From Paraburkholderia phytofirmans OLGA172 (GTDB lineage: Bacteria > Pseudomonadota > Gammaproteobacteria > Burkholderiales > Burkholderiaceae), in contig NZ_CP014578.1 in NCBI RefSeq assembly GCF_001634365.1, positions 2,356,001-2,420,000 on the forward strand: DNA of 64,000 bases, written 5' to 3'. Below the pieces are notes generated by a model that searched no databases, had not been told where the DNA came from, and saw only the letters and a list, made by a program, of their open reading frames with translations. Shown piece by piece: positions 24,639 through 44,377 of this stretch; position 1 is the stretch's first letter; every line of letters starts with the position of its first letter. The position numbers were made by a program, and so were the translations under genes.

Positions 24639-25489
24639 ATGCGCGATGATGTCGGTCACGCCGTAACGCCAATGACGGCTCGTGAGGCCGGCTGGCTCAC
24701 GCCGTCGATTCAGAAATCCCACGAACGCTCCGAAACTTTCGGCTTGAGCGCCGCGATGCGACCGGACTATGACGTGCTGCCGGCGGCTGAACTCACGTTA
24801 AAACTCGAGCAAAGCCGCGTCCTGTGCGCGCATGCCACGCCTGTGATGGAAACGCTGCACGAGCAGATCGTCAACACGCAAAGCATGATCATGCTGACCG
24901 ACGCCGAAGGACTGATTCTTCACTCGATCGGCGACGATGATTTTCTCCGGCGAGCCGAGAAAGTCGCGCTGCGTCCGGGCGCGAACTGGGCGGAAGACCG
25001 GCAAGGCACGAACGCAATCGGCACGGCGCTCGCCGAGCGCTGTCCGACGGTCGTTCATGGCGAACAACACTATCTGGCTGCCAATCGCTTTCTCACCTGC
25101 TCCAGCGTGCCGATCCTCGATCCGTACGGCGATCTGATCGGCGTGCTCGACGTGACCGGCGACCATCGCAGCTATCACCAGCACACCTTGGCGCTGGCAA
25201 AAATGTCCGTACAGATGATCGAGAATCATCTGTTTACCAATACCTTTCGCGAGACGTTGCAAATTGCCTTTCACGGCAGGCCCGAATTTCTCGGCACCTT
25301 GATGGAAGGCATCGCCGCGTTTACCTGCGATGGCCGCTTCCTGTCGGCCAATCGTAGTGCGCAATTCCAACTGGGATTGCCGCTCACCGGTTTGCGCGCG
25401 CATACCCTGTCCTCGCTATTCGGCCTCAGCAGCGAGCAACTGATCGACCGTCTGCGCGTCAGCCGGGACCGGCATCTGTCGCTGTACCT
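24639..25489 (+). pseudogene. AcoR-like sigma-54 regulator, truncated by a Tn3-family transposon
   Basis: ATG at 24639 after AGGAGGAGA. The first 283 residues are native: an N-terminal linker, then a GAF-type sensor domain (about 80-215, QSMIMLTDAEGLILHSIGDD; NRFLTCSSVPILDPYGDL) typical of acetoin-type enhancer-binding proteins. At 25490 the terminal repeat of a transposon begins and the frame ends 12 codons later at 25526. The AAA+ and Fis-type HTH domains are missing and are not found elsewhere in the window. It is therefore no longer an activator; residual sensor protein could still be made. Confidence 0.85.
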
Positions 25490-25527
25490 GGGGTCGTCTC
25501 AAGATTCGGAAATTTGCGCACGTTAAG
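25490..25527 (+). repeat. left terminal inverted repeat of the Tn3-family transposon
   Basis: 38 bp, GGGGTCGTCTC... to ...CGCACGTTAAG. It overlaps the tnpA stop codon (TAA on the minus strand at 25523-25525). Confidence 0.9.
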
Positions 25528-26568: not shown

Positions 26569-27384
26569 CTAGAGGGTGTTAGGCACCTGGACAGCCGGCG
26601 CGACATGTACAAGCATGAGCATGGCGAAGACAACAAAGTGCAGGCCGGCTAACGTTTCGGGCAGACGTTCGTAGTCTCGCGCCAGTCGCCGGAACCGGTT
26701 GAGCCAGCCGAAACTACGCTCGACAACCCATCGGCGCGGCAGCAGCACGAAGCCCTTCTTTGCCTCTGGCAGTTTGATAATCTGCAGTTCGATGCCTTCG
26801 TCATGCGCAGCCTGTCGAGCCGTATCACCGGTATAGCCTTGGTCAGCGAATGCAAGCTTTACCGTCTGACCGGTTGCTTGCTGAACCTGACGGGCAAGCT
26901 CGGCTACCTGTGCGCGCTCCTGCTCGTTGGCCGGCGTGATGTGCACCGCCAGCAACAAACCTAACGTGTCGACAGCCATATGGACTTTGCTGCCTCGCTT
27001 GCGCTTATGACCGTCGTAACCCGCGCGCGGTCCGCTCTCGCAGGTGGACTGCAGAGTGCGCCCATCCAGAATCACCGCACTGGGCTGGCCCTGACGCTCC
27101 TGCGCGACCCGAATTACGGATCGCAGATCACTGACCATTGCCTCGAAGCAGCCCGCGTTCAACCAGCGTTGCGTTTGCTGGTAGACCAACTCCCATGGCG
27201 GAAAATTGGTCGGCAGCATACGCCACGACGCACCCGCCCGCGCCATCCAGCGCAACGCATTGAACATCTCGCGCAGTTCATACCGCCGCTGTGGAGCATC
27301 TTCATTCATCAACGTTAGATAGGGAGCGGCAAAGCTCCACTCTTCATCCGAGACATCTGTCGGGTATGGCTTGCGTTCTGTCAT
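26569..27384 (-). CDS. IS5-family transposase (IS427-like)
   Basis: 271 residues from the ATG at 27384. N-terminal DUF4096-like domain ([33 protein letters not shown]), then the DDE core: [20 protein letters not shown] and the [18 protein letters not shown]lu region. The stop codon TAG is completed by the flanking target bases. It appears intact in one frame. Confidence 0.9.
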
Positions 27385-27427
27385 TCCGCCAGGGTACCAG
27401 GTCTGGCGAAAAGTGCCTAACACCCTC
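26572..27427 (-). mobile_element. IS5-family (IS427-like) insertion sequence in tnpA
   Basis: 856 bp between GAGGGTGTTAGGCAC and its inverted copy GTGCCTAACACCCTC. The target dinucleotide TA is duplicated (TGGCTA on one side, TAGTGG on the other, minus-strand reading). Confidence 0.88.
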
Positions 27428-29359
27428 TAGCCAGGACAGCTTCGCCATGCTGGTACCGGGACAGGCCTCGGCCATCTTGGTGATTCCGAGATTCAATGCG
27501 TCGCCGAGTACGGCGGTCAGCAGCAGCGCTCCATCCTTGGGCGGTTCGCCGGTCTTCAGGTGATTGAAATGTTGCGAAAAATTCGTCCAGCGATCCACTT
27601 CAAGGAGGAGATCGGTGATCTTGATGTGCGGCAAAATCGCGTATGCCCGTTCCCTCAAGGCCTCTGCCTCATCGGGAACGTCCGCGTCGAGTGGGGAGAT
27701 CTTCAGTCCATCGGCTTTCAGTATTGCATCTGGCAGTTGATCGGCCTCGGCCAGGCGGTTCACCTCGTCGAGTGCGGTGCGCAAGCGCTCCAACCGCTCG
27801 GCGAGATAGGCTTGTGGGGTATCAGCGACGGGTACCGCCAGCGTGCCCGTCTCGCGTTGCCCATCAAACGTGGAACGTGGCATGAGGTAAGCATCGAAGT
27901 CCTTGAACTGACGGCTGCCGGCAACCGATACGTCACCCGCACGTAAGCTGTTCTTCAGTTCAGCCACCGCACATAACTCATAGAATTTCCGGTCGATGCC
28001 GCCGTCAACGAACACGAGCGGTTGCCAGCGCTTCCGAACAAAGCCAATCGGTGCGTCTGCTGGCACCTTACGGGCCGATGTGCGGTTCAATGTTCGCAGG
28101 GTCTGGATGGCATCAATCACGCCCTGTGCGGCGGGTGCAGCGCTGAACTCGAAGGTGTCGAGAAACGCCGGTGCATAACGGCGCAGCTGCTGATAGTGTT
28201 GGCCGACCAGCACGAGATGGTCGAAATCCTCGGTACGCGCCAACCTCTGCGCGTCCTTCACCGTCTCGGCAAACTGATCCCAGGGCATGATGGCTTCGAT
28301 CGCGACGAACGGATCGGTACCCGACGTCTTTGCGTCGACCAATGCGCCGCCGATGCGCGCGTAGAGTCTGACCTTGTCGTTGATCGCCTTGCCGGCGGCG
28401 GCGAATTCCCGTTCGTGCCGATGTTTAGCCTTCGTAAAAAACGAACCAATCAGCCGGTCAAGAAGATCAAGCGTTTCATCGATTAGTGTGGCGGCAGTAT
28501 CCAGCAGGATGGCTACGAGCGTCGCGTGACGACGATCAGGCTCATATTCTTCAAGTTGGTAGACCGCCGTCTGTGCACCTTCCCGAGCCAGGCGAATCAA
28601 TCGGTTCTGGTGCACATCGCAGCCTAGATCGATCGGCAAAGCGATTGCGCGGATGGCCTGCAATCGCTCGATGTGGGCCAGCACTGCTTTGGCGGAGGGC
28701 GCACCGGGCGACTGCCGGATCCAGGTCAGCGTGCTGACTCGGCGACCTTCGCGAAGCAACAATAGACTATCGAGGGCCTTGCGTTGTCGTGCCGCGAGAG
28801 GATCAGTCAGCAGACGGTACACCTGGCGTTGCGCGCGTGTTGCCACCTCGGCGCAGAGCCGTTCAATGGTTGCGACGGGTGGCAGCACGATGTGCCGGCG
28901 GCGCAGTTCATCGACGACGGCCTGCGCGAGCGCCATCCCCTGAGTGGTTTGTAATGCGATTGGCAGGAGCCAGTCGGCCACTGCACGATAGTGGGTTCTA
29001 TCGAATTGTGAGAGTTGGAGCCAGTCGATGAGTTCCTGCAGGTGTTCACGCCGCGTCTGGTCGCGCTCGGCGTAAATGTCCCAGATGGAAGCAGAAAGCT
29101 TCAGCTGCACAGCCACCATGCCGAGCAACGGCGGATACGGCCGTTCACCCTCTGCCAAAACGCGGCCCGGGAAACGCAGGTAGCCAATTTGAACCGCTAC
29201 CCCGAGTCGGTTATGGTCGCCTCGATGCTGCCGCACGAAAGCGAGGTCCGATTTCGACAGGCTGTAGTGCCGGATCAATTCGCCTTCATCGGCTGGAAAG
29301 GCAAGCAGTTGCGCGCGCTGGGCAGAGGTGAGCAGTTCCCGGCGCGGCATTGCATGCCT

Positions 29360-33044: not shown

Positions 33045-33082
33045 CTTATCGTGCGCAAATTTCCGAATCTTGAGACGACCCC
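33045..33082 (-). repeat. right terminal inverted repeat of the Tn3-family transposon
   Basis: 38 bp ending ...GAATCTTGAGACGACCCC, identical to the complement of the left end except for one base (CTTATCGTGCG versus CTTAACGTGCG). Confidence 0.9.
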
Positions 33083-33211
33083 AACAAGCACGCGCGCATC
33101 CTGTGGGCGATTCTGGCCAAGGGCGAGCGCTTCGATCCCTCGTATGTCTCCACTCCCTCAACACTGAGGCCAGCCACGGTAGGACAACAGCACGAACAGG
33201 TAAATTCGTAG
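33083..33211 (+). pseudogene. C-terminal fragment of an IS110-like transposase
   Basis: The frame directly at the transposon edge reads NKHARILWAILAKGERFDP and stops at 33211. This matches the tail seen in IS110-family transposases. It is cut by the transposon terminus, so the transposon inserted into, or recombined with, an IS110 copy. Confidence 0.5.
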
Positions 33212-34491: not shown

Positions 34492-36402
34492 ATCGCGGTA
34501 GGAATACCGGTTACCCGATACCCCCCGCACAGATCCGAACGTGCCCAATTTAGGCATTCGGCTCCCACCTCGGGTGATTGACGGCAAATCGGCGATCCGG
34601 CCATGCATGAAGAATCTGCGGTTGGGGTAGCCACTCGTCTGCCAGACGCTGGATACGCTGCCACGTCATCGTGTCCTTCTGGCTGCGCCGCCGAAGCGTC
34701 CGCCGCCAGATATTCATGATGCCGTGTCTGAACGCATGTAGCGCCCGGATGTTGGTCGGGACCGCATGGTACGCAAAGTAGCCCCGAACGATCTGCGCCA
34801 GCCAGCGCCCTTGTGAGGCGATTGGCTCGTGCATCCGGCGGTGCATCTGCTCTTTAACCTGCTTGAGCTTCGCGCGCAGCCGATCCTTGCGGCTCTTTCG
34901 TTTAAGCTGGAAAGCACCGTTGCGTGACCTGCCGCTTATGTGGGTGAAACCCAGATAAGCAAACGTCTCCGGCCTCTCCATACCCTTACGCCTTCGCCGC
35001 TCGGCGGCATACCGACCAAACTCCAGCAGACGGGTCTTCTCCGGGTGCAGCGTGAGATCGAATTCCTCCATGCGCTGCCGCAGGTCCTTCATCAGCAACA
35101 ACGCATCTGCTTCGTACTGGAAGCCCACCACCGTATCGTCCGCGTAACGCGACACAATGACCGTGCCACGTGCCCGCTGACGCCGCCATTTCTCTATCCA
35201 CAGATCAAACACATAGTGCAGGTAGATATTGGCGAGTAGTGGGGAGATCACCGAACCCTGGGGTGTACCGGCTTGTACCGACATCAGCCGGCCATCATCC
35301 AGCACCCCGGCATCGAGCCATTTACCGATCAGGCGAATGACTCTCGGGTCCGCCACCCGATGCTTCACGAAACGGATCAGCCATTGCCGGTTGACGGTGT
35401 CGAAAAAGCTTCGGATGTCGGCATCCAGAATCCAGTTCACAGGCCGCCACTGAATCGCTGCAGCCAATGCATCGAGCGCATCGTGCTGGTTGCGACCCGG
35501 ACGGAATCCGTACGAGAAGCCGAGGAAGTCTTCCTCATAAATGGCGTTCAGAACATCAACCATTACGCTCTGCACAAGCTTGTCTTCCAGTGCGGCCACA
35601 CCCAACGGTCTGAGGCCTCCATCGCCCTTGGGTATGTAACGTCGCAACACTGGCAGGGCACGGTAGCTCCCTGTGTGAACCCGCCTGTGCAGATCCCGGA
35701 GATTGCTCCCCAGTCCTGCTTCGTAGCTTTGCCACGTCACTCCGTCGACACCGGGCGTCGCCTTGCGTTTAAGCGCATAGAACGCATCGCTCAAACGCTC
35801 GACCGTGACGTGGTGTAGCAACGTCGTGAAGCGCATCTTCTTATGCTGCTTCGCCAACTGCCGTACGCGCTCCAGCCCCTGTGACACGCTTCCCCGGTTC
35901 TGCGCCCGGCGCGTGCGAGTCTGGTTCGCGTTCCCTTCGGTCCCCGCCCTTGGCTCCACCCGCTCCGCAGCCGGTTTCCCAGCCTTGTTCGCAGGCTTCG
36001 TCGCTACTATGGCGGAGTCTGACTTCTCACGTCCGTACATCATCGGCTTCGGCTCCTCACCTTCCCGATGCGGGCCTGGCCAATGCTACTGAGCCAGGTC
36101 AGACGTGAGATCTCCCGGTTCCCGCGCAAGGCGCTTGCGTGCATGCCAGGTTCTACGACCACGCCGGATCGGCAGGCACTCGCGATGTCGCGCCCGCTCG
36201 TATTGCCTTCCACGTACTGGAGCGCGTCGGCATCCGGGATATAAACCATTTCGTGGCTCCATGGCTGGCCTGCACATTCCCCTGCCGACGCTTCGCTGAC
36301 CTCCTCACGGATGCCCGCGCACGGCTCGGGGGCGATGTGGCTCGCTATGCCTTCATCGTAGTGGACTCTCACCACCTACACCTTGCCGGTCTCCCGGCGC
36401 AC
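34492..36402 (-). mobile_element. group II intron (1911 bp)
   Basis: Minus-strand intron with the 5' consensus GTGCGCC at 36402-36396 and a 3' end CTACCGCGAT at 34501-34492. Domain V is at 34564-34530 (starts GAGCCGAA with the AGC triad, ends TTCGGATC), followed by a domain VI-like hairpin. It encodes an intron RT/maturase. Excision joins the transposase codons exactly. The domain V loop is not a plain GNRA tetraloop and one base pair is mismatched, so splicing activity is uncertain. Confidence 0.88.
34550..36043 (-). CDS. ltrA: group II intron reverse transcriptase/maturase
   Basis: 497 residues. The RT domain (about 75-330) has VLRRYIPKGDGGLRPLGV, YGFRPGRNQHDAL, AGTPQGSVISPLLANIYL and the catalytic YADD box (RYADDTVVGF). 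A maturase X domain (about 380-470, RWLAQIVRGYFAYHAVP) follows. No clear HNH endonuclease is present. The reading frame ends inside domain V of the intron RNA, whose GAGCCGAATGCC encodes the last codons. It should promote splicing and retrohoming of its host intron. Confidence 0.94.
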   Translation of the reverse strand: MMYGREKSDSAIVATKPANKAGKPAAERVEPRAGTEGNANQTRTRRAQNRGSVSQGLERVRQLAKQHKKMRFTTLLHHVTVERLSDAFYALKRKATPGVDGVTWQSYEAGLGSNLRDLHRRVHTGSYRALPVLRRYIPKGDGGLRPLGVAALEDKLVQSVMVDVLNAIYEEDFLGFSYGFRPGRNQHDALDALAAAIQWRPVNWILDADIRSFFDTVNRQWLIRFVKHRVADPRVIRLIGKWLDAGVLDDGRLMSVQAGTPQGSVISPLLANIYLHYVFDLWIEKWRRQRARGTVIVSRYADDTVVGFQYEADALLLMKDLRQRMEEFDLTLHPEKTRLLEFGRYAAERRRRKGMERPETFAYLGFTHISGRSRNGAFQLKRKSRKDRLRAKLKQVKEQMHRRMHEPIASQGRWLAQIVRGYFAYHAVPTNIRALHAFRHGIMNIWRRTLRRRSQKDTMTWQRIQRLADEWLPQPQILHAWPDRRFAVNHPRWEPNA

Positions 36403-37418: not shown

Positions 37419-37624
37419 TTACGCAGCCGGTGCGTCGCGCTTCCTCCGTGCTTCCGTGCAGCGCCGGTTCACGCTCAGGCAGAGCGCGCGATCAACGAAC
37501 AGCCGGCGCGCCTCGATCACACCGTACCGGGTGCACAGAATGCCCTCGATCGCCTGCCAGTCGGCATAGCGACCGCTGTCAGCCAGGCTGTATGCAGCCT
37601 GCCGTATGCTTGCACGCCGGCCAT
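37419..37624 (-). pseudogene. frameshifted small hypothetical protein
   Basis: ATG at 37624 (MAGVQAYGRLHTA) runs into another frame that reads AYSLADSGRYADWQAIEGI, LCTRYGVIEARRLFVDRALC and ends at 37419. The second part is typical of a short Burkholderia protein family with a YGVxEARRLF helix. The length between start and stop is not a multiple of three, so a frameshift near 37570-37590 is needed. Confidence 0.4.
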
Positions 37625-37689
37625 TTGTTACGTCCCGGCCTAAATTAGGGTTGTCGTCGCGAGCTATGTGGCGTGAGATTGCGAGGGGC

Positions 37690-37736
37690 GTCGCGCACTA
37701 AATGAGGAATGGAATGGGCCTCGTTTAGTGCGCGAC
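37690..37736. repeat. long hairpin near the end of the four-gene transposon
   Basis: GTCGCGCACTAAATGAGG and CCTCGTTTAGTGCGCGAC form an 18-bp stem with one G-T pair around 11 nt, 8 bp after the last gene of the element. It may be a terminal repeat or a terminator. Confidence 0.55.
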
Positions 37737-37743
37737 GGCGGCG

Positions 37744-37944
37744 CTAGATTGGAGGGTCGGTTTTACGGCGCCAAGGTTGATCGGGATCCATTGTCTCGCG
37801 ATAGCGTTTGTCGGAGTCGCGACGCAGTTCGTGCTCGTATCGTTGTTCGCATACAAGGGCGAGGCGGTAGAGGAAGTCGGTCAGAGCACGAGCACAAGAA
37901 TCAGGGATACCATGGGGGAATAGCGTGTCAAACTCGGGCGTCAT
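37744..37944 (-). CDS. small third protein of the DDE/AAA+ transposon (66 aa)
   Basis: Starts at ATG 37944, overlapping the stop of the AAA+ gene (ATGA). The product is Arg/Asp-rich with an aromatic core (FLYRLALVCEQRYEHELRR) and ends ...RKTDPPI. No domain recognised. The tight overlap and its place at the end of the gene row show it belongs to the transposition module. Confidence 0.6.
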   Translation of the reverse strand: MTPEFDTLFPHGIPDSCARALTDFLYRLALVCEQRYEHELRRDSDKRYRETMDPDQPWRRKTDPPI

Positions 37945-38735
37945 TTCAACTCCTCGATCGCCTGTTGTAGCAGCTCGTCGGGTAGATGGTTCAGTCCTTT
38001 GGGCACGGCCATCTGCATAGAGGTGCGCAGAATCCGCCCCGCTTGCCGGGGCAAGCCGCGAGAGGCCTGGCGAAGTAACTCCAGGCCAGATTCGGCCAGC
38101 AACGTATGACTGCAGCCGGCGCTCTTCAATGCGTGTTGGATGAACAGGGCGAAGCGCTCGCGTTCGATCACGGGTTTGAGTTGAACGCGTGCCTGGATAC
38201 GTCCATATAAAGCTGCGTACGGCGCACGCTCGAGCGTTTGGCCCAGACTCGGATGGCCTGCGAGCCAGACAGTGAGCAGGTCGCGCGAATCGAAGGCGAA
38301 GTTCAGGAAGGCCGGGAAGTCGCGGAAGAATTCGAGGGGCAGGTTCTGCGCTTCGTCGATAATCCACACGGGCAACAACTGTTTGCTCTCGACGAGCTCC
38401 AGGATGCGCAGCTTCAGATCCCGCCACAGGTCGGCACGCCGATAGGCGGGCTCCAGACCCAGCGCCCGAGCTAGGCTGCGGTACAGATCGATGCGCCCGA
38501 ACTCGGTTTCAGCCAGATAGATGACCTGGTAGCGATGGGGATTCAAGGCCAGTGCTGCGTGGCGTAACGCGGCAGTCTTGCCCACACCGGGCTCGCCCGT
38601 GAGCAAGCCAATACCGGGACTGTGCAGTAGCCACTGGAAGCGCTCGTTGAATTGCGCCAAGGCGCCGTCGTCCCACAACTCACTATGTTCTTTGGAAAGC
38701 GGCGCGCAACGTAGACCGAAGTGTTGTCGATACAT
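37941..38735 (-). CDS. AAA+ ATPase, ExeA/TniB-like transposition helper
   Basis: 264 residues from the ATG at 38735, with 1 bp between it and the transposase stop. N-terminal YRQHFGLRCAPLSKEHSELW is typical of ExeA-like ATPases. Walker A is GEPGVGKTAALR (about 48-59), Walker B VWIIDEAQNLP, and a sensor region LLTVWLAGHPSL. By analogy with TniB and IstB it would load the transposase at a target site using ATP. Confidence 0.88.
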   Translation of the reverse strand: MYRQHFGLRCAPLSKEHSELWDDGALAQFNERFQWLLHSPGIGLLTGEPGVGKTAALRHAALALNPHRYQVIYLAETEFGRIDLYRSLARALGLEPAYRRADLWRDLKLRILELVESKQLLPVWIIDEAQNLPLEFFRDFPAFLNFAFDSRDLLTVWLAGHPSLGQTLERAPYAALYGRIQARVQLKPVIERERFALFIQHALKSAGCSHTLLAESGLELLRQASRGLPRQAGRILRTSMQMAVPKGLNHLPDELLQQAIEELK

Positions 38736-39313
38736 GTCACAGCTCCCGGGCGTAGTGACGTTGATAGGCAAGCTCGATAAGATTGGGACCGTGCGCTGCG
38801 TTCTCGATCGGCGCGTCGTGTCCTGTCACGGCCGGCTCGACGGTCTCAGGCTGAGATTTGCGCCGCTTGCGTGTGCGATTGCCGACAGCGTCGAGCAGGG
38901 TTGCGGCGCCCAAGGGCTCGCCCGCCTCACTTTCTACGCCCTTGACGGTTCCCGTATGGGGATCCACCACGAGCAACACGGTCTTGCCGACCAGCTCGTA
39001 TGGCACTTCGAAGCGCTTGCCCTGAAATGACACGGTGCCGTCGCGGCGCACGTAGCGCTCGATACGGTGCAGGAACAGTTCGTCCAGTTGTGCGGCGCGT
39101 GCGCCGAGTGTGCCGATACGGGGTAGGTCCTGCTGATAGCGGGCGAGCGGCGTCTGGTTACACAGGCCGCTGTGTTCGGTGCGATGGTAAATCTGTTCGA
39201 CCCAAGCCCACAGGCGCGCGTTGAGGTCCGCCAGATCATGGACGTGCGTGGTGTCGAGCTCGCTCAGGAATTGAGCCCGTAAGCTGCGATGCCAGCGCTC
39301 CAACTTGCCCTTG

Positions 39314-39345
39314 CCCTCGATATGGACTCGAGTCCATATCGAGGG
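39314..39345. repeat. 32-bp perfect palindrome at the left RIT junction
   Basis: CCCTCGATATGGACTC followed by its exact reverse complement. The outer CCCTC is the target sequence; the central 22 bp belong to neither the host transposase gene nor the inverted repeat. There is no counterpart at the right junction, so it may be coupling DNA brought from a previous site. Confidence 0.85.
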
Positions 39346-39376
39346 TTATGTGCCGGCCAAATATATGTCGCGGCGG
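39341..39376 (+). repeat. left 36-bp inverted repeat of the RIT element
   Basis: Begins GAGGGTTATGTGCCGGCC and ends GTCGCGGCGG; an exact inverted match to 42703-42738. Probable binding arm for the recombinases. Confidence 0.92.
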
Positions 39377-39475
39377 ATGATGAAGGGCAGACCTGAAGCG
39401 GTGAATGGCCAGAACTATGCGACATATTAAATTGGTTCGATACTGGTAAGCCCCCGTTTCAAAGGACGGCACGCC

Positions 39476-40720
39476 ATGTTGGAAACCCTATTCACTCGCC
39501 CTTGTAGTCTGGCTCGACACTGCTCCAACCCGTTCGCCGCATCTATAGATCAGTATCTTGAGCATTGCTTGGAGCAAGGCTATACACGGTCGTCATTGAG
39601 GAAGATCGCCTGGGTGTTGATGGCCTTTTCGCAAAGCCTTGACCTGTCTCGAACGAGCCGGATTACCCGTCAGGAGATCGCGTTTGCGGTAGATCGCCGC
39701 GCTCGTTTTGCCCGGCGACCTGAGCACGCCCAGGATTCGAGAAGCTCACGACTGTTGTTCATCCATATCGCGACCGCGTGGCTGCGTTTTCTCGGCTATC
39801 TGGAGGAGGATATAGTCGAGCCGCGGCCATTCGCACACCTGGTCGATGATTTCGTAAATTTCATGGCCGAAGAGCAAGGCCTGACCGCCGCGACAGTAGC
39901 GTTTCGTCGTGAACAGGTCACGCATTTCCTGGACATGACCTGGCCCGCAAGTGGCTCTCTGAATACGATCTCGATTCAGGACGTCAATGCCTATCTTGCC
40001 CGGCAAGGCAATCACGGCTGGAGCAGAGTGTCGCTGCATACACTCGCGGACGCATTGCGCAGTTTTTTCCGCTATGCGCAGGCCCAGGGATGGACCAGCA
40101 ACATCGCGGCGGCCATCATGACGCCGCGTATCTATGCCCACGAAGCTTTGCCCCTCGGGCCACGCTGGGACGAGGTGCAACAACTCATTGAGTGTTTCAC
40201 CGGTAACAGTGCAGCAGACCTTCGCGATCGGGCTATCGTACTGTTGCTCGCAGTCTACGGACTGCGTCGTGGCGAGGTTGCCCGACTTCGCCTGGAGGAT
40301 CTGGACTGGGCCGGTGAGAAGCTCTATGTGACGCGCCCAAAGCAACGCTGCACGCAACAGTACCCCCTGGATTCGGTCGTTGGCGACGCGATCATCCGGT
40401 ACTTGAAGGAAGCGCGGCCACGATGCGTTCATCGCCAGCTGTTTCTGAGTCTTGACGCGCCCATTCGCCCCCTTTTGCCGGCCTGCATTAGTCCCATTGT
40501 GCGTTCGCGCCTGGCCGCTCTCGGCATCCACCCCCCACGGCGTGGCGCCCATTGCCTGAGACATGCCTGTGCCCGGCAGCTGTTGGCTGGAGGCTTCTCC
40601 CTCAAGCAAATCGGTGACCATCTCGGTCATCGTAGCGCCGCAGCGACCAGAGAGTACGTCAAGGTCGACCTCGACGGTTTGCGGCAAGTGGCCGAACTCA
40701 ATCTGGAGGCGCTGTTATGA
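39476..40720 (+). CDS. RIT tyrosine recombinase A
   Basis: 414 residues; AAAGGA ribosome site. N-terminal SAM-like core-binding domain (about 95-200), then a catalytic domain with the Arg in VYGLRRGEVARLRL, the HxLRH box (HCLRHACARQLL), the LGHRS helix and the Tyr in ATREYVKVD. All catalytic residues are present. It overlaps recombinase B by 4 nt (ATGA). The longest of the three, as usual for the first gene of a RIT trio. Confidence 0.93.
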   Translation: MLETLFTRPCSLARHCSNPFAASIDQYLEHCLEQGYTRSSLRKIAWVLMAFSQSLDLSRTSRITRQEIAFAVDRRARFARRPEHAQDSRSSRLLFIHIATAWLRFLGYLEEDIVEPRPFAHLVDDFVNFMAEEQGLTAATVAFRREQVTHFLDMTWPASGSLNTISIQDVNAYLARQGNHGWSRVSLHTLADALRSFFRYAQAQGWTSNIAAAIMTPRIYAHEALPLGPRWDEVQQLIECFTGNSAADLRDRAIVLLLAVYGLRRGEVARLRLEDLDWAGEKLYVTRPKQRCTQQYPLDSVVGDAIIRYLKEARPRCVHRQLFLSLDAPIRPLLPACISPIVRSRLAALGIHPPRRGAHCLRHACARQLLAGGFSLKQIGDHLGHRSAAATREYVKVDLDGLRQVAELNLEALL

Positions 40721-41655
40721 AACTCTCCGATCTTGCGCACGAGTATGTGGCGTACAAACGCGCGCTGGGCATGCGTTTCGATACCGAAGCAGAGACACTG
40801 GCTGCGTTCTGCCGGCGTGTCGGTGATGTAGCGTTGGTCGAGGTCACCGCGGATCAAGTAAGGAGCTATCTTGATGGCCGCCTGCCCACATCCAGCTACT
40901 GGGAGCGCAAACACACGGTGCTCAACGGCCTGTTTCGATTTGCCATGCAGTGCGACTACATCAAGATTTCGCCGGTTCCTTGCCGCCATCCGCAAATTCC
41001 GCCCCCTCTGATTCCCTACATCTATTCGCAGGAGGAGTTAAAGCGCCTGCTGGATGCAACACCAGCTGTGTGCGGCCCGCAAGTTCCAATGGAGGCGTTT
41101 GTATTCCGCACTCTAATCCTGTTGTTATATGCAGCCTGCCTTCGACTCGGCGAAGCGCTGCGACTTACGATGAACGACGTCGATCTCGATCAGGCCGTTC
41201 TTTGTGTTCGAGAGACCAAATTTTACAAGACGAGGATGGTCCCTCTTGGCAGAGATTTGAGCACGGCGTTGCGCCATTATGTCCAGCAACGCAATCTGGT
41301 TCATGCGCACGATCCGGAGTCACCATTCTTTTGTTTTCGCGATGATCGTCCCTTGAGCCAATCAGCAGTACGAAGCGCTTTCCGGCGACTGCGTGCGCTC
41401 GCCCGTGTCAGTCGCCACGATGGTGCCCGCTATCAGCCACGGATTCATGATCTTCGGCACAGCGGCACGGTGCATCGACTAGTGGCCTGGTATCGCAGCG
41501 GCTCGGATCTACAGCGGCTTTTGCCCCAGCTTGCAACGTACCTCGGCCATATCGATCTCTCTGCCACGCAACGCTATCTCACGATGACCCCGGAACTTTT
41601 GCGCGAAGCAAGCCTTCGCTTCGAGCGGTATGCCAAGGAGCCCCGTCATGAATGA
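40717..41655 (+). CDS. RIT tyrosine recombinase B
   Basis: 312 residues. N-terminal SAM-like domain, then Arg in ACLRLGEALRL, HDLRHSGTVHRL, LGHIDLSATQRYLTM with the nucleophilic Tyr. Active site complete. It overlaps A by 4 nt and C by 8 nt, so the three are translationally coupled. Confidence 0.93.
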   Translation: MKLSDLAHEYVAYKRALGMRFDTEAETLAAFCRRVGDVALVEVTADQVRSYLDGRLPTSSYWERKHTVLNGLFRFAMQCDYIKISPVPCRHPQIPPPLIPYIYSQEELKRLLDATPAVCGPQVPMEAFVFRTLILLLYAACLRLGEALRLTMNDVDLDQAVLCVRETKFYKTRMVPLGRDLSTALRHYVQQRNLVHAHDPESPFFCFRDDRPLSQSAVRSAFRRLRALARVSRHDGARYQPRIHDLRHSGTVHRLVAWYRSGSDLQRLLPQLATYLGHIDLSATQRYLTMTPELLREASLRFERYAKEPRHE

Positions 41656-42643
41656 CACAATTTTGCTCGGACCTTGGGTCCGGCGTTTCCTGCTCGAACA
41701 CTTGGTCGCTGAGCGCAATCTCGCCGTGAATACCAGAAAGAGCTATCGTGACATGCTCACGCTGTTACTTCCCTATGTAGCCGGAAAGGTCGAGAAGCCA
41801 ATCGATCGTCTGACGGTCACCGATCTATCGGCGCAAATCGTGCGTCTGTTTCTGACTCACGTGGAGCAGCAGCGCGGTTGCACGGTCGCGACGCGCAATC
41901 AGCGCCTGGGTGGTATTCACGCATTGGCGCGATTCATCGGCGAGCATAGCCCCGAGCATATCGAGTGGTGCGGCCAGATTTGTTTGATTCCTTTCAAAAA
42001 GGCCAGCCAGCCCTCGATTACCTATCTGGACAGGCAGGAAATGGATGCGCTTCTTGCTGCACATGACGAGCATAGCGCGCAAGGGCGGCGTGAACAGGGT
42101 TTGCTACTATTTCTCTACAATTCTGGCGCGCGGGCCAGTGAGGCCGCGCAGGTCAAGATCAAAGATATCGATTGGCACGCGGAGTGCGTCCGCATTGTCG
42201 GCAAAGGAAACAAGCAGCGCCGCTGCCCGCTCTGGACCGACACCCTCGATCAATTGCGTGTCTTGGCGGGCGAACGAGACGGGTCAGAGCCGGTATTCCT
42301 CAACCGCTGCGATCGACCGATGACCCGATCAGGCATCCATACGTTGGTAAAACGCTGTGCCGGCCACGCTGGTGATCGCATGCCATCACTCAAAGACAAG
42401 AAAGTGGGACCCCACGTGATTCGCCACAGTACTGCTTCCCATTTGCTGCAGTCGGGTGTCGACATCAACACCATTCGGGCCTGGCTTGGACATGTCTCGC
42501 TGACCACCACGAATGTCTATGCCGAAATCAATCTGGAGACCAAGGCTCGCGCATTGGCAACGTGCGCAGTATCCGGGACGATGAAGGCAAGAAAGCGCTG
42601 GCGCGACCAGCCCGACCTGTTGGAGTTCCTGCGCACGCTGTAA
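41648..42643 (+). CDS. RIT tyrosine recombinase C
   Basis: 331 residues from the ATG at 41648. SAM-like N-terminus (ERNLAVNTRKSYRDML), Arg in NSGARASEAAQVKI, PHVIRHSTASHLLQ and WLGHVSLTTTNVYAEI with the catalytic Tyr. Resembles XerC/D-like phage integrases. Full length; 59 bp from the right inverted repeat. Confidence 0.93.
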   Translation: MNDTILLGPWVRRFLLEHLVAERNLAVNTRKSYRDMLTLLLPYVAGKVEKPIDRLTVTDLSAQIVRLFLTHVEQQRGCTVATRNQRLGGIHALARFIGEHSPEHIEWCGQICLIPFKKASQPSITYLDRQEMDALLAAHDEHSAQGRREQGLLLFLYNSGARASEAAQVKIKDIDWHAECVRIVGKGNKQRRCPLWTDTLDQLRVLAGERDGSEPVFLNRCDRPMTRSGIHTLVKRCAGHAGDRMPSLKDKKVGPHVIRHSTASHLLQSGVDINTIRAWLGHVSLTTTNVYAEINLETKARALATCAVSGTMKARKRWRDQPDLLEFLRTL

Positions 42644-42702
42644 CCCAAAAATTATGTGCTGGCCGCATCTCGCAAATCCATGCGGCATGCCGGTATAAAA
42701 GG

Positions 42703-42738
42703 CCGCCGCGACATATATTTGGCCGGCACATAACCCTC
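42703..42738 (-). repeat. right 36-bp inverted repeat of the RIT element
   Basis: Begins CCGCCGCGACATATATTTGG and ends ...ACATAACCCTC; exact inverted match to the left copy. The last 5 bp continue directly into the host transposase gene. Confidence 0.92.
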
Positions 42739-43636
42739 GGGAGCATACGGTCTACAATAAACCAGCCTGATCGACAGCCGTGCACAAATGCCCTGCAATG
42801 TCGCCGCCCGATAAGCGGCGCCGTTATCGACGATCAACATCTTGGGCACACCGCGTTTGAGCAAGGCCTGCTTGAGTACGCCCTCGATGTCGATCGCGCT
42901 CTCCGAGAAGCAGAACGCGCTATGGGCGATGAGCCGCGAGGCGTCGTCCATCAACGAGACCAGGTAGGTCTTGCGGCGCCCTCGGCCAAGCGACAAGTGC
43001 GGGCCATGCAGGACATCGCCGTACCAGATGGAGCCGGCGTGTTCGGCCACGAAACTGCGTTTCTCCTCGGGCAAGCTGGCCGAGCCAACGATGCGCGAGA
43101 GCCCGTGGGCTTGCAGCAGCCGATGAACGGCGCAGCGCGAGAGTGTGTCGTGCGCCACGATACCCGCAGATTCGAGCAGCAAACGGATCTGGCGGATCGA
43201 GCGTCGCGGATTCTCGCGCTTAGCTGCAAGGATCGCAGCTTGCACGGCCGATGGCAGCTTCGATTGCCCGCGATCCACACGGGGCTTGCTGCACAGGCCC
43301 TCCAGCCCGTGCTGTTTCCAGGCGTAATACCAGGACTGAAGCGTCTTCTCGCCGATATGGCGACGACGAGAACCGGGAATTGCGTACTCCTGCTGAGCCA
43401 GTTGGCGGATGATCTGCTGCAAGTCGCCGCGATCAAGCCGTTCGCGACTGACAAGTGGTCCGAGTACGGACAGGCGAAACAGGGCCTTCGGGTCGATGTC
43501 CTTCATGCTCACTCCTATGGTTAAAAAGGGAGTGCCATGAGAACCGCGAACCGAATTCGGCGCGAGTGGGCAAAGTGTGTGGAGAGCCCGGAATGACGAA
43601 AATTAGGTCGTCGCGTACCCAATCAGGATAAACGGA

Positions 43637-44209
43637 TCACGGGACGCAAACGCCGTCGCCGTCGAGCCAGGCCATGGCTTCGCACAACGGCATGCGCTGC
43701 AGGCAGCGCAGCCAGAATTCAGTGATATCGACTGATCGCCCGAGTTCGCCGAAACGGCTTCGCAAATGAAATTCGAACGAGAGGCTACGCTCGCCAAGCC
43801 GCTGCCACCAGCGCCGTACCGTATGTCTGCCGAGCGCGAAGATCGCACTGGCGCGGCGCTGCGAGCAGCCGGCCAACAGAAGGAGTAAGACACGCTGTTG
43901 GTCCGCCCAGTTGTACCAACGGTGGGGAGCTATGCACAGCGGCAGGCGCGAACACGTGCGGCTGCAGGTTCGACAGCGAAAGCGCAAAACGGGAATCGGA
44001 TTGAGAGCGCCAGCGGCGCTGCGGTCGGCCTTGCGATGGTAACGACCGTGACACCACACATCCGAGCAGCCGCAATGTACGCAAGCGACAGGTCGATACA
44101 CTTGCGGCGTGCGATCGACCGCATTGAGATGTTGTTCAAGAACAGGAAACGCGAATACAATTCGATGCATAGGCCGGTCTACTTTGTTGTTCGTGTGGGG
44201 CTTCGTCAC
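43637..44209 (-). CDS. zinc-ribbon/HTH protein of the DDE transposon
   Basis: 190 residues from a GTG at 44209 (GGGAAG upstream); an ATG at 44170 (MHRIVFAFPVLEQHL) is an alternative. Two CxxC pairs (CVHCGCSDVWCHG; FRCRTCSRTCSRLP) form a transposase-type zinc ribbon, followed by an HTH (CSQRRASAIFALGRHTVRRWWQRLGER). This resembles DUF6431-like accessory proteins encoded beside DDE/AAA+ transposases. Its place 130 bp before the DDE gene on the same strand supports an end-binding or targeting role. Confidence 0.7.
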   Translation of the reverse strand: MTKPHTNNKVDRPMHRIVFAFPVLEQHLNAVDRTPQVYRPVACVHCGCSDVWCHGRYHRKADRSAAGALNPIPVLRFRCRTCSRTCSRLPLCIAPHRWYNWADQQRVLLLLLAGCSQRRASAIFALGRHTVRRWWQRLGERSLSFEFHLRSRFGELGRSVDITEFWLRCLQRMPLCEAMAWLDGDGVCVP

Positions 44210-44272
44210 TTCCCACGATAACAGAGCAGTACTGGCCTTCTTTACGTCCGTCTCATCTCATGATGTTCAGGG

Positions 44273-44377
44273 TTAAGTTCCAAACTTCATCCTATTTGAT
44301 ACCGAGATAAACACCTCCGCTGGAACCCAGATATAGCGGGACGTAACACCATTACGCAACGTGTATCGCGTCGCCAT
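44273..44377 (-). CDS. possible small protein (34 aa)
   Basis: ATG at 44377 with CAGGGGGC upstream; reads MATRYTLRNGVTSRYIWVPA and ends at 44273. Too short to classify. It lies outside the transposon genes and may be a fragment. Confidence 0.25.
   Translation of the reverse strand: MATRYTLRNGVTSRYIWVPAEVFISVSNRMKFGT

Follow-up and report, generated by a model that had tools for sequence, protein, structure and literature searches.

Background

The recombinase in trio (RIT) elements of Cupriavidus metallidurans CH34, and related ones, carry overlapping ritA, ritB and ritC genes (ritABC) and are about 3.5 kb long (PMC2864759, PMC3414803; here and below, statements on published work refer to excerpts of the papers cited). 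Their ends have been described as an inverted repeat of 28-29 bp plus an overlapping palindrome (PMC3414803), and two core-binding domains in RitA and an extra C-terminal helix in RitC have been reported (PMC8138268). In C. metallidurans, rit1 lies in an IS66 tnpA and rit2, like a Bordetella petrii copy, in radC (PMC2864759), while copies in Acidithiobacillus ferrooxidans lie in a Tn6049-like transposase (PMC3414803). Single insertions of RIT elements into transposase genes are therefore already known. The way in which RIT elements cut and join DNA has been open, and in a table from 2023 target specificity, the empty site and movement are all given as untested for RIT (PMC10214605). Here we analyse a RIT element in a 64,000-bp stretch of the Paraburkholderia phytofirmans OLGA172 genome (the window) and compare it with other RIT elements.

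Other mobile systems resemble RIT in part. GInt islands also have three tyrosine recombinases, circular intermediates and target specificity, and 6-nt staggered cuts have been proposed for them; unlike RIT they have a fourth gene, form islands of up to at least 76 kb and have direct, imperfect repeats (PMC5385486). SE elements and Tn554 share with RIT the tyrosine recombinases, a 6-bp footprint and imperfect inverted repeats, but their gene sets (intA, tfp, intB and srap in SE, tnpABC in Tn554) do not include the ritABC trio (PMC10214605).

Results and discussion

A complete RIT element splits a transposase gene

The window contains a complete RIT element, an ordinary member of the family, which measures 3426 bp from core to core (Table 1). 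Like the published elements, it has the ritABC trio, a length of about 3.5 kb and an inverted repeat with an overlapping palindrome. The three genes are adjacent open reading frames (ORFs) on the plus strand, each overlapping its neighbour, and R-K-HxxR-H-Y residues could be read from the alignments in all three products alike, as expected from the original prediction, which had described three overlapping tyrosine recombinases with complete active sites. All three match XerC/XerD models with scores below the model cut-offs. In RitA, Pfam finds a single SAM-like domain (residues 123-205) and assigns nothing to the 122 residues before it. Between the inverted repeats there is no ORF of at least 100 amino acids clear of ritABC, and a fourth conserved gene of the GInt or SE type is absent from the element.

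The terminal inverted repeats are perfect, as had been predicted, over 37 bp rather than 36, and the predicted CCCTC at both junctions is a 6-bp repeat, CCCTCG. A perfect 32-bp palindrome at the left end, which had been missed, overlaps the left repeat and has no counterpart at the right end. Joined in silico, the two ends give a perfect 94-bp palindrome made up of a 31-bp arm, CCCTCG, a 20-bp spacer, CGAGGG and a 31-bp arm. Such a joint would hold two inverted 6-bp core sites around one common 20-bp palindromic spacer.

The element sits directly before KGKLE, between the second Asp (in VDNG) and the Glu of the host transposase, which are 35 residues apart by eye. Homologues with no interruption, 437-441 residues long, are found in Paraburkholderia sp. 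PGU19, Cupriavidus necator N-1 and Acidithiobacillus caldus, and on each of these three the two pieces of the transposase align one directly after the other. The A. caldus homologue reads PYAPEGKGKLER over the insertion site, with PEGKGKLER spanning the insertion point. Together with the repeats and ORFs, this bears out the claim that a complete RIT lies between the catalytic Asp and Glu of a DDE transposase. The distance between the junction repeats (42734 - 39314 = 3420 bp) is a multiple of 3, and its removal would be frame-neutral, as had also been claimed. NF033577 (IS481) is the top NCBIfam match for both pieces, below its cut-off; on this match and the presence of the ATPase partner we call the transposase IS481-like. 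An ATP-binding protein stands at the equivalent place in two intact relatives. Without the RIT the host transposon would be 3.3 kb (6723 - 3420 bp), with an ATPase, and it was compared by description with Tn6049, a 3.5-kb transposon with a gspA-type ATPase (PMC2864759).

Table 1. Features of the RIT element and of the transposon around it (window positions).
Feature	Position	Strand	Description
Target duplication	37621-37625 and 44349-44353		CCATT, 5 bp
Host transposon	37626-44348		12-bp terminal inverted repeats TGTTACGTCCCG / CGGGACGTAACA
ATPase partner	37941-38771	-	Pfam AAA_22
Transposase, C-terminal piece	38740-39312	-	starts KGKLERW, with the catalytic Glu
RIT element	39314-42739		
Palindrome	39314-39345		perfect, 32 bp
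Near junction core	39314-39319	+	CCCTCG, junction repeat
P20 spacer	39320-39339		ATATGGACTCGAGTCCATAT, 20-bp palindrome; left end only
Terminal inverted repeats	39340-39376 / 42703-42739		perfect, 37 bp
Inner core	39340-39345	+	CGAGGG, inverted copy of core
Left arm	39346-39376	+	TTATG at 39346, ATATG 17 bp inward (39363); perfect inverted repeat
ritA	39476-40720	+	tyrosine recombinase, 414 aa; Pfam Phage_integrase
ritB	40717-41655	+	tyrosine recombinase, 312 aa; Pfam Phage_integrase
ritC	41630-42643	+	tyrosine recombinase, up to 337 aa; Pfam Phage_integrase
Right arm	42703-42733	-	perfect inverted repeat
Far junction core	42734-42739	+	CCCTCG, junction repeat
Transposase, N-terminal piece	42742-43512	-	rve, IS481-like, both catalytic Asp; ends ...YCRPYA
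DUF6431 protein	43637-44209	-	DUF6431 at the equivalent place in three relatives

The genome has a second RIT copy on another contig (L021), likewise missed before and 100% identical. It exists because the whole host transposon is duplicated: the 6.7-kb transposon with its RIT occurs twice, identical end to end, and the second copy has its own 5-bp duplication, GCAAG. Degenerate repeats in all other copies, the outcome that the original prediction had set against itself, were not found, since this copy and many relatives have intact repeats. Judging by two copies with different 5-bp duplications, the host transposon has moved with the RIT inside it. No uninterrupted transposase was found in the genome: searches with both pieces as DNA and with the N-terminal piece as protein returned the two interrupted copies only. 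That an interrupted transposon moved where no intact copy was found implies mobilisation in trans, transient excision of the RIT, or an intact copy that has since been lost.

The RIT had been proposed to disable the transposase reversibly. The transposase is indeed split; as to reversibility, neither an empty site nor a circle was seen. A switch in which excision restores the host transposase would fit with the frame-neutral 3420 bp between the 6-bp cores and with movement of the host transposon after the RIT had arrived. We nevertheless regard such a switch as doubtful, as no uninterrupted copy was found in the genome, movement in trans or by a since-lost intact copy explains the data equally well, and SE elements circularise without leaving an empty site (PMC10214605).

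A symmetric attachment plan is shared by unrelated RIT elements

Loci for comparison were picked from the listed matches of RitB and RitC searches and are a selection rather than a complete survey. A single script was run over 95 loci (17 + 59 stretches, 16 named plasmid stretches and 3 further loci) and gave 111 RitB-like places. Seven had no RitA or RitC neighbour, one was the window again and three were doubles, which left 100 trios. After removal of 33 trios with no repeat, 6 at contig ends, 6 with unconvincing repeats and the transposon copy L021, 54 elements were used. The spacer was scored in 52 elements: these 54 minus L167, L169 and L170, plus L021.

The end repeats and the one-sided palindrome recur in unrelated RIT elements. 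In the relatives the palindrome is 20 bp long and is placed 6 bp outside the arm. Spacers with at least 8 of 10 pairs occur in 40/52 elements against 58/1963 shifted controls, those with at least 9 in 32/52 against 5/1963, and those with all 10 in 20/52 against none of the 1963. Across 23 arm families the consensus of the arm is TTATG-N12-TTATG and that of the spacer TTATG-N10-CATAA. The arm matches itself at a 17-bp offset with a score of 0.78, compared with 0.16-0.36 at other offsets. For each element the register was set in part by how well the cores agreed and by the presence of TTAT in arm and spacer; the 17-bp repeat played no part in this choice. Near and far cores agree at 4.8/6 positions against 1.8/6 for random pairs, a figure inflated by the choice of register. 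Among 40 elements, L021 included, the three cores are identical in 13 and all different in 12; in the others just two agree, near with inner in 8, near with far in 4 and far with inner in 3.

The core counts bear on whether RIT elements are cut and pasted or instead move as SE elements and Tn554 do, by copying out, with no empty donor site and a 6-bp footprint. The 6-bp core is what such a mode would leave, and the 8/40 elements in which the near core equals the inner and is unlike the far core look as if element sequence had been carried to one junction. Yet near and far cores are the same in 17/40, no intermediates were seen and RIT lacks the additional genes found in SE and GInt. Copying out is a tentative alternative, to which we give less than even odds.

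In the RIT core we see a likeness to the core of dif, the layout of which we take to be CATAA-N6-TTATG. The RIT arrangement differs from XerCD/dif in having a double inverted site with a common 20-bp spacer.

Repeat-less trios were re-examined with the arm motif. Six of the 43 entries examined, out of 44, yielded ends (L151, L154, L155, L157, L187 and L198, the last two from the hold-out set described below), and matches from blastx, Pfam or NCBIfam place all six in mobility genes; for L154 the sole basis is one blastx match, and L155 has no Pfam match. As the palindrome helped to select them, they are kept out of all counts. Contigs L078, L111, L147, L150 and L161, which are near RIT length and both start and end in or near the repeats, were considered as RIT circles and rejected; they look like collapsed repeats.

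An IS91-type end, CGCG(T/C)CAGCGGTTTAGTAC, occurs seven times in the searched loci. Five of the seven (L071, two RITs of L118, L129 and L168) lie exactly 8 nt outside a RIT arm, at one constant point, which would fall 2 nt into the 20-bp spacer. In L071 and L168 the unit is annotated with an IS91 transposase and a tyrosine-type integrase. RIT attachment (att) sites may be a target of an IS91-like element.

RIT elements often lie in conserved motifs of other mobile elements

Mobility enzymes or ribozymes are interrupted by 44 of the 54 RIT elements with locatable ends: IS66 TnpC (16) and TnpB (2, with L172 by eye), IS21 IstA (8) and IstB (1), IS481-like (2), ISAzo13 (1) and IS256 (1) transposases, tyrosine recombinases (9) and group II introns (4). 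The flanks were searched separately, by blastx (reference set: enzymes of the fetched loci), with Pfam for chosen flanks and with NCBIfam. Assignments made from one flank only include L071, both L118 elements, L129 and L168, in which the other flank has been replaced.

The split points recur. In IS66 TnpC they fall near residues 323, 332 and 452-468, and in IS21 IstA at 231/235 (a slash marks the split). In L060, L062, L109 and L143 the Phage_integrase match stops at 120-133 of 172; L110 and L067 are split elsewhere. Read by eye, the split motifs are conserved or catalytic ones: DxYxG, GCWAH and ENxIRP in IS66, GNE/KGRVER and GHE/NGSVE in IS21, HDLR/H in tyrosine recombinases and VDTK in ISAzo13; the residues named as catalytic within them are those we take to be so. 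According to Rfam, group II introns adjoin L026, L072 and L073. In L072 and L073 the split lies in domain V, aligned by eye with the RF00029 consensus, and 5' intron halves were recognised by eye in L028 (two) and L026 (one); a 22-bp search found no intact domain V in the fetched loci. These positions suggest that RIT elements tend to insert into catalytic motifs of other mobile elements, as far as sequence comparison can tell, and the single insertions published earlier fit such a rule.

Could RIT elements simply insert with little specificity, with copies surviving only in dispensable mobile DNA? Their flanks are rich in mobile genes, and about 68% of 19 chromosomal RITs with known context are on predicted islands (PMC3414803). 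The same enzyme set covers 0.54 of the flank at the junction, 0.24 at 2-2.75 kb and 0.29-0.38 beyond. Surroundings of this kind do not explain fixed split points, and survival alone would not predict recurrent split points, one spacer side per target class or lineage-specific targets. We consider this explanation very unlikely.

Target choice follows the Rit phylogeny, as judged from a RitB + RitC tree of 45 trios (near-identical copies left out, L065 added). On this tree the target labels need 20 changes, where the minimum is 19 and 300 shuffles gave 32-39. The RITs of the window and of Caballeronia sp. dw_19 branch beside a lineage that strikes the matching motif of IS21 IstA.

For the hold-out, a prediction was written down before 18 new loci were processed, with the thresholds left as they were. 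Six loci were usable and one more was cut off by a contig end; of the six, five lie in mobility enzymes, so that the prediction on targets held. Pfam or NCBIfam supports a phage integrase in L181, IS256 in L189 (Cupriavidus sp. KK10) and ISL3 in L194 (Rhodococcus opacus). L192 (Mesorhizobium sp. AR02) lies in the RitB of another RIT, and L197 (Polaromonas sp. P1-6) in a RitB-like ORF by eye. L191 lies in a toprim gene and nearly coincides with L170, a locus from the first set.

Several loci are unusual. RITs lie within ritB of other RITs at the HDLR/H box in L061, L062 and L192. In L167, L169, L170, L191 and, by eye, L028, the same target half is found inverted on both RIT flanks, as if two insertions had recombined, and the flanks of L063 derive from two different targets. 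L114 (G317:C1:889500-897500) splits the type VI secretion gene TssF, with its sister copies in IS66 genes. L069 and L120 have the core GGGTCG, and their flanks matched no reference enzyme.

Orientation and cores vary as a proposed symmetric joint would predict

Given a symmetric joint, the rit genes are predicted to point either way, with the spacer side set by the target. Of 39 elements (L021 left out), 22 carry the spacer at the ritA end and 17 at the ritC end. There is one spacer side per target class in all seven classes with at least two scored elements (26 elements), with 14 of these elements in the A and 12 in the C orientation. This count includes two spacers at 7/10, and its elements are not all independent, as L061, L062 and L063 share a near flank; for L123 the far flank served to assign the near one, and the sides of L072, L073 and some of the tyrosine recombinases were judged by eye. 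L061 and L062 have the same target and opposite rit orientation.

In Caballeronia sp. dw_19 (L027), a RIT is found at the identical site of the same transposon in reversed orientation. The host DNA is 96.3-96.6% identical to that of the window and the RIT DNA 91.6%. A reversed RIT that is less similar than its host points to independent insertion. This argues against the possibility that the recurrent positions are old insertions inherited with transposon families rather than repeated targeting. Inheritance does account for L021 and the window element, which go back to a single insertion that was duplicated along with its host, and some close pairs, such as L104/L105, share both RIT and target family. 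As a general explanation it is highly improbable, as near-identical RITs also occupy different targets: TssF in L114 and IS66 in L115 and L116; tyrosine recombinases in L060-L063 and an unassigned ORF in L064.

L024 and L025 both lie on contig C3 of the host genome, and the far core of L024 is the same as the inner core of L025 (TCATTT). A second such pair comes from genome G317, where L116 has as its far core the inner core of L115 (TTTCGT); the near junction of L114 also reads TTTCGT. Such matches would be expected if the site that takes no part in an insertion retains the core from a place where the element was before.

A proposed mechanism

Our preferred reading, to which we assign a probability of roughly 80% on the sequence comparisons, is that RIT is a site-specific transposon with a symmetric double att plan and lineage-specific targets, mostly conserved motifs of mobile elements. 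Recombination between the two junction cores would excise the RIT as a circle with the joint CATAA-N12-CATAA-core-TTATG-N10-CATAA-core'-TTATG-N12-TTATG, that is, with two inverted recombination sites around one common spacer. A 6-bp core in the target could then recombine with either site. The outcome would be rit genes in either orientation, with the spacer on a side fixed by the target core, and the inner core left unused could record an earlier target. For the lineage of the window element the target is PEG/KGKLER, immediately before the catalytic Glu of the IS481-like transposase. Two of the Rits may act as a XerC/XerD-like pair at the core sites, and RitA, with its two published core-binding domains, may grip the paired 17-bp motifs. 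Insertion of this kind would spare host genes and allow the RIT to travel with its host transposon, which here moved while carrying it.

Some of our observations count against this mechanism. No excision, circle or transposition was observed. Spacers fall below 8/10 in 12/52 elements, four of them at 7; an IS91-type element stands in the place of the spacer in five of the twelve, and seven have no explanation. The choice of register somewhat inflates the first TTATG, the spacer ends and the near-far core agreement. Among the trios, 33 of 100 without an inverted repeat, 6 at contig ends and 6 with unconvincing repeats could behave differently. In the hold-out, 11/18 loci had no repeat, and spacers with at least 8 pairs were found in 3/6, with one more at 7, where most had been predicted to have them. 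Ten targets are not assigned to mobility functions: toprim/DUF7146 in two (L169, L170), DUF932 (L139), DUF3489 (L148), an HU-like gene (L165), TssF (L114), a SRAP-like start (L145, by eye only) and three without assignment. The surroundings of RITs are rich in mobile genes, at 0.24-0.54 of flank bases. Two patterns for a dif-like site gave no match in the host genome.

A broader proposal, which we hold to be somewhat more probable than its opposite, is that RITs as a class are specialised parasites of mobile elements. In this view the symmetric double att of each lineage matches the DNA for a conserved catalytic motif, or for group II intron domain V, in one transposase, recombinase or ribozyme family, a sequence hard to mutate away; RITs would be natural brakes on transposons, and their unused core would record an earlier target. 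If so, a whole class of elements restrains other mobile elements by striking their least changeable DNA, and the RIT lineages offer different natural target specificities for integration. The att plan and the target rule give exact substrates with which the cut-and-join mechanism can be tested. The value of the find lies in the comparison, that is, in the shared symmetric att plan and the lineage-specific insertion. Published accounts treat RIT sites singly, and the excerpts cited contain neither the palindromic double att nor the 17-bp repeat of the arms nor the catalytic-motif rule. The literature searched has no statement of a general target rule or of a double att; Ricker 2013 and Van Houdt 2009 were outside that search, and part of this may be in print.

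Other features of the window

The window has a further inverted repeat of 39 bp, 97% identical, at 25489-25527 and 33045-33083. Between its two copies lies an ORF (27344-29350) for a Tn3-family transposase; its match is confined to the first part of the DDE domain, and it looks truncated. A reverse transcriptase ORF (Pfam RVT_1) is found at 34550-36043; its best PADLOC model is that for a general reverse transcriptase, and DRT-type models score lower.

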